The notes beneath the pieces were generated by a model. That model worked only from the letters and a program-made list of their open reading frames with translations. It ran no database searches and had not been told where the DNA came from. Shown here in pieces: positions 41,130 through 46,800 of a DNA stretch of 64,000 nt; position 1 is the first letter of the stretch; each line of letters begins with the position of its first letter. This stretch comes from Rheinheimera sp. MM224. Its GTDB lineage: Bacteria > Pseudomonadota > Gammaproteobacteria > Enterobacterales > Alteromonadaceae. The stretch is from the NCBI RefSeq assembly GCF_947090785.1, contig NZ_OX352320.1:1798001-1862000 (forward strand). The letters run 5' to 3'. The translations under genes and the position numbers were made by a program.

Positions 41130-41957
41130 ATGCTGACTAAAGTACTAGGTTTGAGCGTGTTTCTGCTGCTAAGCCAAAGCAGTTTTGCCGCCACTGCGGA
41201 TGCTGGCATCAGTATCAGTCAGGCTTTGCAGCACGAAGCCCGCACTGCAGAAAATAAAAAACGTGACGCTGCACGTAAGCCGGAGCAAACATTGGCGTTT
41301 TTTGAAGTGACGCCAGAAAGCACGGTAGTGGAAGTCTGGCCTGGTTCTGGTTGGTATACCGAAATTTTAGCGCCGTTACTGGCCGAAAAAGGCAAACTCT
41401 ACGCTGCCCATTATTCCGATAAATTCACCATGCTCTCCGCTGACTATATGCAAAAAGGCCGCGCAGAATTCAAAGCAAAACTGGCATCGCACCCCATCTA
41501 TAAAAATGTCACAGTGACAGACTTTGCACCTTTGGCTGATATCGACATAGCGCCAGCAGGCACTGTGGATCTGGTGCTGTCTATCCGCAATCAGCTCTAT
41601 CTATTTGATGGCGAAACCTCGTTAAAACATGCGTTAGACAACTTTTATAAAGCGCTGAAACCAGGTGGCGTATTAGGGGTAGTAGCGCCGCGTCTGCCAG
41701 ATAATTTAATCAATACAGACTGGAAAAAAACCGGTTATGTGCCAGAGCAGTTATGGTTAAAACTGGCCAAAGAGGCCGGATTTAACTTCGAGGCAAGTAG
41801 CGACATGCTACTCAACCCAAAAGACACCGCCGATCACCCATCAGGCATTTGGTCTTTACCACCCACTATGGCTGGAACTAAAGAAGAAAAAGCTAAGCAT
41901 CTTGCTATTGGCGAAGTAAACCAGATGGTGCTGAAGTTTAGAAAGCCGCTGGTGTAG
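41130..41957 (+). CDS. Exported SAM-dependent methyltransferase-like protein
   Basis: The protein has about 275 residues. It carries a signal peptide (LGLSVFLLLSQSSFA, cleaved near residue 20), then a Rossmann methyltransferase-like fold with VVEVWPGSGWYTEILAPLL as motif I and ALKPGGVLGVVAPR as motif post-II. It resembles COG4798-type predicted methyltransferases. An exported enzyme using SAM is odd because SAM is cytoplasmic, so the fold may have another use. I prefer ATG 41130 behind AGAAGGAA over a TTG two codons earlier. It is a single gene upstream of the SatD-like island. Confidence 0.82.
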   Translation: MLTKVLGLSVFLLLSQSSFAATADAGISISQALQHEARTAENKKRDAARKPEQTLAFFEVTPESTVVEVWPGSGWYTEILAPLLAEKGKLYAAHYSDKFTMLSADYMQKGRAEFKAKLASHPIYKNVTVTDFAPLADIDIAPAGTVDLVLSIRNQLYLFDGETSLKHALDNFYKALKPGGVLGVVAPRLPDNLINTDWKKTGYVPEQLWLKLAKEAGFNFEASSDMLLNPKDTADHPSGIWSLPPTMAGTKEEKAKHLAIGEVNQMVLKFRKPLV

Positions 41958-42030
41958 GGTGGTTGCCTGAATGGTTGTGTTCGTTGCAGGTTGCATTCGC
42001 CGCAAAGCGGCTAATGCTAAAGGGGTAGGC

Positions 42031-42148
42031 TTAGCCATAAACAGCTAATTCTCTATTTTTAGCCAAAAAAGGCTAACCCTCTATTTTACTTAATTCCTGC
42101 AATTAGCCAAAAATAGCTAAATTTGATTTTTTAGCTAAAAATGGCTAA
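42031..42148. promoter_or_regulatory. Four 18-bp palindromic operator-like sites (TTAGC-N8-GCTAA)
   Basis: Four sites with perfect 5-bp inverted arms lie at 42031-42048, 42059-42076, 42103-42120 and 42131-42148, start-to-start spacings 28, 44 and 28. The spacers are A-rich (CATAAACA, CAAAAAAG, CAAAAATA, TAAAAATG). A half-site TTAGCCATAAACC recurs inside the SatD-like gene at 42188, and GGCTAATGCTAA appears at 42009. They lie just before the SatD-like start and could be its autoregulatory operator. Confidence 0.8.
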
Positions 42149-42180
42149 ATTTGTATCTGGATGTAAAAAGGAGTTTTAAT

Positions 42181-42831
42181 GTGGAGCTTAGCCATAAACC
42201 TATCGCAGTGATCAGCGGGGACATTGTTAACTCAACTAAGTTAACCTCTGAGCAGTTTGAAAAACTACTTAAACGAATCAAAGATATTCAAACATGGATC
42301 AGCGTAGGGAATTCATCAAATGCGCACAGTATTGAGCGTGGTGATGAGTTTCAGTCCGTGGTACATGATATTGAATGCGCTCTGAGATACACCATCATTT
42401 ATCGAATTGGTATTAAAGCGCTTGGCAAAGAATTTGATAGTCGCATTAGCTTTGCTATTGCTTCTAATGCAGATCTGCGTGAGTCGGTCTCTGAATCAAT
42501 GGGGAAAGCATTTGTTCTTTCCGGGCGTGGATTAAAAGCCTTGAAGAGCGACAAGTTAGTTTTTAACTCTGACCGCTTTGAGCTCACTGAACACTTTGAT
42601 TTGCTCTTTAAGTATCTTGACAGACAACTCACTGAATTAACCTCGCGCCAATGTGAAGTCATGCTTCCTATGCTCCAATCAAACGAAGGGTTGTCGATTA
42701 ATGAGTTAGCAGAAAGGCTTGATGTCGCTACTGCCACTGCGAGTAAGTCACTTAAAGCTTCAGGTTGGCCGCTGATCAGTGAACTGAATTGGCGGTTTAT
42801 TAACCAGGTGGCGGGGCTCAAGTATGTCTGA
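42181..42831 (+). CDS. SatD-like protein with C-terminal winged helix
   Basis: A GTG start at 42181 behind AAAAAGGAG gives 216 residues. The N-terminal two thirds match what I recognise as the SatD family. Asp14 in ISGDIVNST and Asp55 in ERGDEFQ sit where class III nucleotide cyclases carry their two metal-binding aspartates, and RISFAIASNADL resembles the cyclase RVRIGIHTGE region. Residues about 155-216 look like a MarR-type winged helix (SINELAERLDVATATASKSL). The gene overlaps the DUF3307 gene by eight bases. No member has a proven enzymatic role to my knowledge; cyclase similarity is my inference. Codon use looks different from neighbouring genes. Confidence 0.75.
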   Translation: MELSHKPIAVISGDIVNSTKLTSEQFEKLLKRIKDIQTWISVGNSSNAHSIERGDEFQSVVHDIECALRYTIIYRIGIKALGKEFDSRISFAIASNADLRESVSESMGKAFVLSGRGLKALKSDKLVFNSDRFELTEHFDLLFKYLDRQLTELTSRQCEVMLPMLQSNEGLSINELAERLDVATATASKSLKASGWPLISELNWRFINQVAGLKYV

Positions 42832-43588
42832 TTTTTTTAGTGTTCTAATACCCTTCATGCTGATGCACATCATCTGCGACTTTTACTTGCAGCCAAAGCT
42901 ATGGGTCGAAGCCAAAAAAGCGAGCACTTATCGCTCACTTGAGTTATACCTTCACTCACTACTACATGGCGTTGCTTCATTAATTCCTGCAGTGATCTTA
43001 GCTGTTGATTGGCGCACCGCTGCTTGCGTGGTTGTTATAGTTGCAGTAAGTCATTTTATTATCGATCTGTGGAAAGTAAGTACACCACGTGGTGAGACAT
43101 TTTCCTATTTTGTTATTGACCAGACTTTGCATCTGTCGATATTAACGGTCATTGCTTTTCATATAGCAGACAGTGTAACGATTGAAGCAGTGCTAAAACA
43201 TGAGAACTTCCAGGATGCAGTGATGCTGCTTTTTGGTTACCTTCTCATTCTCAAACCAACATCAATTGTGATTGCCAGCATCTTAAAAAAGTATCCAATA
43301 TCAGGTAGCGCTGGAGACGACACTACTCAAGTCAGTGGTATTGTCGCTGGTGGCGAGTTGATTGGTTATTTAGAACGCTTGTTAATACTGACTTTTACCC
43401 TTGTGGGCAGTTATGAAGCTGTGGGGTTCGTATTGGCAGCCAAGTCAATATTTAGATTTGGTGAATTGAACAAAACAAACGACCGAAGCATGACTGAGTA
43501 TGTGTTGATTGGATCATTGGTATCGGTGGTGATCACAACATTAGTGGGAACCTTATTGTCATTTGGTTTGGAGGTAAAAATTAAGTAG
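42824..43588 (+). CDS. DUF3307 integral membrane protein
   Basis: The 254-residue protein has about six or seven hydrophobic segments. Polar pairs sit inside or next to helices: HIICDFYLQ near residue 15, HSLLHG near residue 45, SHFIIDLWK near residue 78 and DQTLHLS near residue 98. Such His/Asp pairs recall membrane-bound metal-dependent hydrolases of the YdjM/DUF457 kind, though the match is only by pattern. DUF3307 genes are commonly paired with SatD-like genes, as here with an eight-base overlap. Function unknown. The next gene, recC, is 246 bases away and has its own ribosome site. Confidence 0.82.
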   Translation: MSDFFSVLIPFMLMHIICDFYLQPKLWVEAKKASTYRSLELYLHSLLHGVASLIPAVILAVDWRTAACVVVIVAVSHFIIDLWKVSTPRGETFSYFVIDQTLHLSILTVIAFHIADSVTIEAVLKHENFQDAVMLLFGYLLILKPTSIVIASILKKYPISGSAGDDTTQVSGIVAGGELIGYLERLLILTFTLVGSYEAVGFVLAAKSIFRFGELNKTNDRSMTEYVLIGSLVSVVITTLVGTLLSFGLEVKIK

Positions 43589-43834
43589 GCGAAAGGCTAT
43601 TTGGCTGCTTATGGCTTAATGCCTCAATAAGTTCGAATCTTAAGGGATAGCTGCCTTCTGTTTACCTCAGGTTGTTCTTGGCAACCTAACCTTGTTATCG
43701 TTGTTAGGATAAGCTGTTCCTGCGACAACCCCATATTTCCAACAAAACCCAATAGGCGTATGCAACTCACTGTGGCAAAATCAGTTTTATAGCTTAAACA
43801 GCAAACTAATAAAGACTAACGGAGTACTGTCGCA

Positions 43835-46800
43835 TTGGCACTTGAGCCTGGTTTTTTAGTGATCCATTCCAATCAGCTGGAGCAGCTGCGCTCGCTTCTG
43901 GTGCAGTTTTGTCAGCGGTATCCGCTCTCGCCTTTAGAGCTTGAACAGGTGCTGGTGCAAAGTAACGGTATAGCGCAGTGGCTGAAACTGGCTTTTGCCG
44001 CGTCCCCTGATGAAGCAGATCCCTATGAGCGTGGTTTGGGGATAGCCGCTGCTATGCAGGTGCAGTTGCCGGGTCGTTTTATCTGGAGTATGTATCAGTT
44101 GGCGCTGCCAGAGCAGCAACTGCCTGATTTATCGGTCTTTAGTAAAGACAGTTTACGCTGGCGTATTTTCCGTTTATTGCCTGCTTTAGTCACACAAGAT
44201 GAATTTGAGCTGCTGCGCCGTTTTATCATTGACGATAAAGATCAGCAAAAACGCTCACAGCTGGCGCTGAAACTGGCGGATTTATTTGACCAGTATCAGG
44301 TATATCGTGCCGACTGGCTGGCTGATTGGGCCAAGGGGCTGTATCGCCTGGCGCAAATGGATGGTGACGCTAAAGTGATGCCTGATGATCAGCTGTGGCA
44401 GGCCAAACTCTGGCAGGCGATTTTGGCAGAACTACCAGCAGAACAGCAGCAACAAAGCCGGTTTTCCTTGCATCAGGCCTTTTTACAGCAAGTAAAAAGC
44501 TGGAAAAAAGCGCCAAAGAATTTACCACGCCGCGTCATTATTTTTGGTATCTCGTCATTACCGCAACAGATGCTGGAAGTCTTGTCGGCACTTGCGCCTT
44601 ATTGTCAGATTTTATTGGCGGTATTAAACCCTTGTCAGTTGTATTGGGCTGATATTATTGCCGAAAAAGACAAAGTCAAAGCAGCACAAAGACGTCAGCC
44701 GGAAAAGACCGGTTTTTTACCTTTTGCCAGTGCCGAGCAGTTATCAGGCCAGGCCCAGCCTTTGCTGGCGGCCTGGGGCAAACAGGGGCGGGATTATATT
44801 CGTTTGCTGGATCAGTTTGACGAAACTGCCGCTCATAAAGAGCTGTTTGCCCATCAAAAAGTCGATTTATTTGAATCGCCCAACACCAGCCATTTATTAG
44901 GTCAGTTGCAGGACGATATTTTGCAGCTGCGGTCCATCACTGAAACCCAAAGCCAATGGCCAGCTTTAACAGCTGAAGCGGCGCGCAGCATCAGCTTTCA
45001 AAAAGCCCATAGTCCACTTCGCGAAGTAGAAATTCTGCATGATCACCTGCTGCAGCTGTTTGCCCAAAAACCAGAGCTTGGCGCTAAAGATGTGATGGTG
45101 ATGGTGCCGGACATTAATTTGTATGCGCCTCTTATTGAAGCCGTATTTGGCAAAGTGCCGATGGGCGATTTGCGTTATATCCCTTACAGTATTTCCGATC
45201 AAAACAGCAAAAAGCAGCAGCCGTTGTTGCAGGCTTTAGAAGTGCTGTTAAGCCCCGAGCAGCAACGCTTAAACGCCAGTACCGTATTCGATATGCTGGA
45301 TATCAGTGCCTTACAGCAACGTTTTGGTTTAAAAGCTGCCGCTTTACCCAAGATAAAACAGTGGATTGAAGGGGCTGGTATTCGCTGGGGGCTGGATCAG
45401 CCGCATCGTCAGCAACTGGGTTTGCAGCATGGTTTTGAGCAAAACAGCTGGCTCTTTGGTATTCGTCGTATGCTGCTGGGGTATGTGGCGGGCGATACAG
45501 CGCCCTGGCAAGGTATAGCGCCTTATGCCGATGTGGCAGGTTTAGAAGCCGCTGAACTTGGCCCTGTGCTGGTGCTGCTGCAAAAGATTAACGAGCTATG
45601 GCAACAACTAGCGGTAAAACGCAGCCCCGCCGATTGGCATTTGTTATTTACTCAGCTGCTACAAGACTTTTTTGCGCCTGACGAGCTGGAAAGTCAGCAG
45701 CTGGTGCAGCAGTTACAACAGCAACTGCAAAGTTGGCTCGACAACACTACAGGCGCTGAACTTGAAGAAAAGTTGAGTTTACAAATTGCCCGTCAGGCTT
45801 TGTTAGAACCTATGCAGGCCGGTGGCTTGCAGCAGAAGTTTTTTAGTGGTCGTGTTAATTTCGCCACTTTGCTGCCGATGCGCTCCATACCTTTTGCGGT
45901 GATTTGTTTATTAGGCATGAACGATGGCGCTTATCCTCGGGCGCAGCAGCGACAGGATTTTGACCTGATGGCGCTGGATTATCGCAGTGGCGACAGATCG
46001 CGCCGTGATGATGACCGTTATTTATTACTCGAAGCTTTATTATCGGCCCGCCAGCAGTTTTATATCAGCTGGGTAGGTTTTAGCGTCTTTGATAACAGCG
46101 CCCGCGCGCCTTCAGTGCTGGTCAGTCAGCTGCGTGATCATTTGTCTACAGGCTGGGTTATGGCCGATGATTCTGATTTATTGGATCAAATCACTGTTGA
46201 ACACCCGTTGCAGCCTTTTAGCCGCCGTTACCGTGAAGCAGGATCGAATCTTGTTAGCTATCAGCAGGAATGGGCCAGCTTGCATCAAAAAATCGGTGCG
46301 GCAGAGCAGGGCGAGGCACTTGAAAAGCTTGACGATTTACACTGGACTTTAAAACAAGCCAGCGATTTTATGCGTGAGCCGGTGCGGTTCTTTTTTAATG
46401 AACGTTTAAAAGTACGGTTGGAATTGCCGGAACTCGCAAGTATTAACGATGAAGTTTTTGCTTTGGATCCGCTGGAACGTTGGCAAATGCAGCAGCAGTT
46501 GGTGGCTGAGTTAAAACGTAGTGTTGAACAAAATGGCCAGTGGCAACAACAGGCGGAGCAACAGCTGGAGTTATTCCGCTTGCAGGGCCGTTTGGCTGTG
46601 GGTTCGGGCGCTGCGTTAATGCAACAGGACTTAGTGGCAGGGCTGGAAGAACTAGCAGCTGGCTATCAGGAGTTTTTAACTGCTTTCCCAACAGCGGACA
46701 CAGGTTTTTATCCGCTGAGTTTTGTTTGTCAGCACGGCGAGCTGGTTGAGCATTTAACAGGTTTTAGGCGCAGCGCTGATAACGCAGCTTTGGCTTATGC

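Follow-up and report, generated by a model that had tools for sequence, protein, structure and literature searches.

A phase-locked palindromic array upstream of cyclase-fold SatD-like genes, probably read by the SatD-like protein itself

Four palindromes precede a SatD-like gene in the window (the whole 64-kb stretch of Rheinheimera DNA analysed here) and very probably form the dedicated operator of that gene, at which bound protein would repress both the SatD-like gene and the adjoining DUF3307 gene. The original prediction of such an operator is right in its main point, but its scope is larger: comparison of sequences across loci points to a clade-wide, phase-locked architecture with a co-evolving recognition code, attached to a cyclase-fold, probably self-repressing SatD-like protein.

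The palindromic array and its distribution

Site 1 (TTAGCCATAAACAGCTAA, 42031..42048), site 2 (TTAGCCAAAAAAGGCTAA, 42059..42076, 28 bp from site 1), site 3 (TTAGCCAAAAATAGCTAA, 42103..42120) and site 4 (TTAGCTAAAAATGGCTAA, 42131..42148, 28 bp from site 3) are perfect 5-N8-5 palindromes without assigned strand. The predicted form, TTAGC-N8-GCTAA, and the predicted starts at 42031, 42059, 42103 and 42131, with steps of 28, 44 and 28 bp, are all exact. The four sites fall inside 118 bp, and the entire genome (4.64 Mb, one contig) contains six perfect matches to the pattern, namely these four and two singletons, of which one lies inside a 246-codon open frame and the other outside any frame of at least 120 codons. 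Read backwards, the pattern has three matches in the whole genome, and no chained array was found in the other 360-bp tiles of the 64-kb window. A half-site at 42188 had also been noted. Its 12 bases are indeed present just after the GTG start codon (42181-42183), but a role as an additional array site is not supported: among 38 TTAGC-type loci, it occurs there only in the window and in L121-L123, which are the three nearest relatives at 97-98% identity, so that the half-site is most likely a coding coincidence. One of these relatives, L122, carries a degenerate middle site with eight of ten arm bases, its last five sites being separated by steps of 28, 28, 27 and 28 bp, and the 44-bp gap of the window may be the trace of a decayed five-site array.

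In four overlapping genome sets, a SatD-like protein was recovered from 77/196 genomes at the level of the family, 13/22 at that of the genus, 56/394 at that of the order and 9/369 at that of the class, two of these nine belonging to the window's family. The pooled 186 loci, which include 36 named loci and three of six plasmid records, comprise 152 distinct loci after removal of 33 duplicates and of L062, which has no N-terminus. Within 360 bp upstream of these genes, 5-bp inverted repeats with a gap of 8 occur 451 times, in 141 loci, compared with 73-115 for odd gaps and 65 (in 52 loci) for gap 8 inside the gene; the excess also seen at gaps 4, 6, 10, 12 and 14 is that expected for co-centred palindromes. 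When no spacing constraint is imposed, neighbouring sites are 28 bp apart in 188 cases and 29 bp in 57, and the next most frequent step, 51 bp, occurs six times. The first reading expected the upstream regions of orthologous SatD-like/DUF3307 pairs to hold such sites, and they do: an array of 5-bp arms, 8-bp spacers and 28/29-bp steps is present in 131 of 152 loci at a score of 5, and in 118 at a stricter score of 7. Chained arrays arose in 0.2% (score 5) and 0% (score 7) of shuffles (n=3040) and in none of the 152 loci inside the gene, while a grid of other spacings passed in at most two loci. Chains consist of two sites in 52 loci, three in 68, four in eight, five in two and nine in one. In a free scan, the literal TTAGC string catches 39 of the 152 loci only, because the arms diversify whereas spacer and phase are fixed.

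The array is absent at a score of 5 from 21 of the 152 loci, several of which are degenerate, truncated or masked. The start of L016 aligns abnormally, the upstream region of L136 is largely N, an ACAAC-like group (L075, L076, L079) and others have visible sites that score low, and two degraded sites can be discerned by eye in L131. All seven class-scan loci outside the order lack the array (0/7), and it is therefore taken, from these sequences, to be a feature of this clade. One of the seven, L087, has a pair of ATATC-N12-GATAT palindromes, which are wider and lie 28 bp apart, and a Segatella copri plasmid (L132, Bacteroidota) carries a SatD-like/DUF3307 pair with weak TTGAT-type repeats upstream at 28-29 bp. 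Long rows of GTAAC sites are seen upstream of the SatD-like gene of L116, with nine sites at 29-bp steps, and in L171, with nine sites at mostly 29-bp steps and two kinds of inner spacer in alternation. Within the 22 genus genomes, exact matches to a two-site pattern occur in six only, each with a TTAGC-type SatD-like gene (83-100% identity); all other matches deviate at two or three bases, and the two-site pattern read in reverse has no match.

The SatD-like protein and its recognition helix

The SatD-like gene (42181..42831, forward strand) starts with GTG after a GGAG and encodes a class III cyclase-fold domain followed by a C-terminal winged helix. The codons of residues 181-193 (42721..42759, forward strand) include those of the recognition helix, which spans residues 184-193 in the predicted model (mean pLDDT 95.7). 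The nearest named copies, in R. faecalis and R. soli, share 98% protein identity. Conservation was followed in 102 representatives with less than 90% identity, in which 29 near-identical accepted loci (at least 90%) had been collapsed; L132 passed the array criterion but does not figure in the covariation tests, for which 101 were used. The cyclase fold of the N-terminal domain is indicated by the model and by Foldseek and VIA-align matches, and both metal aspartates align with those of Ma1120, D14 being kept in 101/101 and D55 in 99/101 representatives. The class III transition-state motif comprises an asparagine and an arginine, which we equate by eye with positions 112 and 116. Position 112 is asparagine in 2/101 representatives only (V, I or T in 96/101), and arginine 116 is kept in 68/101. 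Since the motif asparagine is not kept, and the arginine only to this extent, the modelled domain is called cyclase-like and its catalytic activity is putative. The motifs TGD, RGD.FQ and SGR are near invariant in the SatD-like set. In two loci of one genus, L081 and L082, D55 is replaced by S and DUF3307 is missing, with the array retained; a link between active site and DUF3307 is possible from these sequences.

The winged helix noted in the first reading is seen again in Pfam searches, in profile matches to MarR-type chains (best E 0.0037) and in the helices of the model, the best Pfam match being HTH_24 (E 3.8e-4; 20.4 bits vs. a cut-off of 21.9). The protein also matches PF16264 (E 9.6e-5) over positions 2-57 of a model 211 positions long, with a score of 22.5 bits that does not reach the curated cut-off of 29 bits, and it is therefore named SatD-like rather than SatD. 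Twelve of 33 alignment members match PF16264 at E 0.01 or better, and some close homologues have the domain assigned to them in precomputed annotation.

Sixteen arm types occur over the 101 representatives, and particular arms tend to accompany particular helices. TTAGC is found with ATATASKSLK and close variants, GTAAC with SRVNVTKLLN, GTAAT with SRVNITHLLN, GCAAC or GCAAT with TRQNISNRL, GCAAG with TRQNISERL, GCAAA with TRQNVATHL and TCACA with NRSNVSRIL; the helix IPQSRVSERL is found mostly with ATACG, but with GTATA in L178. One arm can be paired with different helices, GTAAC also occurring with RVSINRS-type helices. Without control for the tree, K189 is the column most strongly associated with the whole arm, and S190, A185, K192 and A183 are in the first ten; columns outside the helix (H49, P163, M107, L21) are also high, which speaks against the operator reading. 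To take relatedness into account, changes were counted on a tree of the N-terminal domain by itself (midpoint root, parsimony), with 22 whole-arm changes over 200 branches. Of 207 columns, K192 co-changes best with the whole arm (p 2.9e-6; 10 of its 20 residue changes coincide), followed by K189 (p 2.1e-5; 9 of 19). Both belong to the recognition helix and survive correction for 207 columns; L176 and H49 come next. Uncorrected for relatedness, R184 accompanies G at the outermost arm base in 60/63 and T186 accompanies G at the fourth arm base in 24/24. Single-base tests were weaker and mixed, with T186 first for base -6 and other columns first for -9, -8 and -5. When prediction of the exact arm was restricted to proteins with less than 35% N-terminal-domain identity, the nearest helix was correct in 21%, compared with 8% for the nearest N-terminal domain and 3% by chance; below 45% identity, the corresponding fractions for helix and domain were 0.33 vs. 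0.23, and with looser cuts the helix has no advantage over the N-terminal domain.

The earlier suggestion that the SatD-like protein reads its own array is upheld by the tree test, in which arm changes follow its recognition helix, and strong computational evidence favours this predicted recognition. It is improbable that some other host regulator binds the array and that the SatD-like protein is the regulated gene only. Regulators commonly act in trans, as is generally known, but the arms shift with the SatD-like recognition helix even on a tree from which that domain is omitted, and self-recognition is for that reason preferred over an unrelated regulator; in addition, exact two-site arrays in the 22 genus genomes are at SatD-like genes only, and the array travels with the gene pair between genera.

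Promoter elements, the DUF3307 partner and the mobile cassette

Site 4 sits within the spacer of a promoter-like sequence on the forward strand, TTGATT-17-TAAATT (42123..42151), which was read from sequence and has 8 of 12 consensus bases. This weak match is below the threshold of a plain promoter scan and so was not listed there; a promoter-like sequence is placed alike in relatives. Over the 101 representatives, TTGACA hexamers with at least five of six bases peak at -36 (nine) and -8 (eight) relative to the last site, the median count being one; these two peaks are separated by 28 bp, and each falls in the gap that precedes a site. At +15, the matching -10 position, six are counted compared with a median of two, fewer than at the non-pairing peaks at +9 (13) and -19 (10), so that the hexamer pattern appears to fit promoter occlusion only in part. 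Autorepression by the SatD-like protein is likely, because promoter-like elements lie between the sites. A SatD-like protein, most likely as a dimer, would occupy each 18-bp palindrome, with one winged helix to each 5-bp arm. The 28-29-bp repeat sets half-sites every 13-16 bp in alternating orientation and would suit side-by-side, cooperative binding along the DNA. Promoter elements between and within the sites would then be covered by the bound protein, leading to repression of the SatD-like and DUF3307 genes. More speculatively, the cyclase-fold domain may sense or make a nucleotide, with relief of repression or an action on DUF3307 as the outcome.

There is little likelihood that the palindromes work as RNA hairpins, in attenuator or leader structures, instead of as DNA sites: the array stretch does fold more stably as RNA than shuffles (z -4.35) and one site has a terminator-like tail, but the strict 28/29-bp phase, constant 8-bp spacer and changing arms have no obvious RNA reason, the promoter-like hexamers between sites would leave the upstream sites untranscribed, and the arms follow the DNA-binding helix.

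The DUF3307 gene (42824..43588, forward strand) overlaps the end of the SatD-like gene and encodes a multi-pass membrane protein whose match to PF11750 (E 1.2e-29, 103.3 bits) is above the curated cut-off of 23; of 47 aligned members, 44 match with an E-value of at most 0.05. The protein has hydrophobic segments and a confident all-helical model (mean pLDDT 90.2), for which structural matches are weak. A DUF3307-like open reading frame is next after the SatD-like gene in 148/152 loci, and of the four loci without one, L176 runs into the end of its contig and L077 is a truncated locus. A hand comparison of 98 family genomes identified DUF3307 in 34, the SatD-like gene in 32 and both in 31, and no array was present at three DUF3307 genes of a single genus that have no SatD-like gene beside them. 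In 47 aligned members, H15, D19, H77, D81, D99 and H103 of the N-terminal half are near invariant and E184, R185, K207, R211 and E225 are invariant; the conserved residues suggest a buried polar or metal site.

The array and both genes make up an accessory cassette (42012..43743, forward strand) between a methyltransferase-like gene and recC. Homology to a SatD-less relative (L209), whose RecC is 93% identical, stops at 42011 and restarts at 43744, and the corresponding interval holds Phd/YefM antitoxin and ParE toxin genes instead of the cassette. In 35 copies elsewhere, DNA homology starts at 42031-42033 in five, at 42098-42103, within five bases of site 3, in 25, and later in five; in 19/35 it ends at 43584-43595, at the DUF3307 stop. 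Matches are present on six plasmid records, including a Vibrio lentus plasmid typed conjugative (90.7% protein identity). As judged by DNA homology, the array and the two genes are transferred as one cassette, across genera. The region 41957-43835 next to recC is a variable site among the relatives examined, with the SatD/DUF3307 cassette in G000, G920 and G923, an IS66 transposase in G111 and same-looking toxin-antitoxin open reading frames in G933, G192, G157 and G921, the Pfam assignment to Phd/YefM and ParE being for G921 only.

The plasmid records and the nine-site row of L116, with its 29-bp steps, are what might be expected if the array served a mobile element in partition or recombination, as an iteron- or centromere-type site, with repression secondary, and it is general knowledge that plasmid partition-operon sites of this kind double as operators. 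Such an origin is nevertheless a slim prospect: there is one match per genome among the matches listed, the window copy lies within a single 4.6-Mb contig, the partner is a membrane protein, the family matches show no NTPase and the array is at one cassette end only.

Relation to known systems and significance

PF16264 denotes SatD, the secretion and acid tolerance protein D, and an acid-tolerance label is carried in passages of SatD texts (PMC11323703, PMC10326533, PMC5786311). The passages of these texts contain no mention of an operator, and a cyclase fold is not mentioned in the SatD literature passages. The window protein shares the PF16264 match of the SatD family, yet falls under the curated cut-off. 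In the relevant part of one report, satD of streptococci is called essential in the tested strains of S. pyogenes and is nonetheless accessory, being present in 178/249 genomes (PMC11323703). Among the 5.39 million papers searched, few of them from subscription journals, DUF3307 appears in one only, in a jumbo phage gene table (part of PMC8504454).

The protein differs from class III cyclases such as Ma1120, and from the wider palm fold (GGDEF, Cas10/Cmr2), in that a winged helix is attached and the motif asparagine is not kept. The layout recalls Pycsar, in which a cyclase gene stands beside a membrane effector gene, since here a cyclase-fold gene adjoins a DUF3307 membrane-protein gene. However, unlike the pyrimidine cyclase and PycTM of that system, the cyclase-fold protein bears a DNA-binding domain and has its own predicted operator array. 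A PADLOC search gave no match for DUF3307 and only weak ones for the helix-turn-helix portion of the SatD-like protein (best E 0.0058), and no common defence setting was seen among the cassette neighbours; no evidence for a role against phages emerged. The cassette also resembles autoregulated toxin-antitoxin operons: the first gene is DNA-binding, with a palindromic operator (here predicted), a sister genome has a Phd/YefM-ParE pair at this location and, suggestively only, satD of S. pyogenes is essential yet accessory in the account noted above (passages of PMC11323703). It differs from such operons in that DUF3307 has no toxin family match among its profile matches.

The SatD-like family gains a concrete role to test, in which a DNA-binding protein with a cyclase fold has an operator code of its own. 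Sixteen arm types found in nature, together with the corresponding helices on a constant scaffold, provide a data set for work on DNA recognition, and cooperative assembly could be studied on the strictly phased arrays, which range from two to nine sites. With the essential-yet-accessory streptococcal satD, as described in passages of PMC11323703, the question becomes one of a repressor and its partner.
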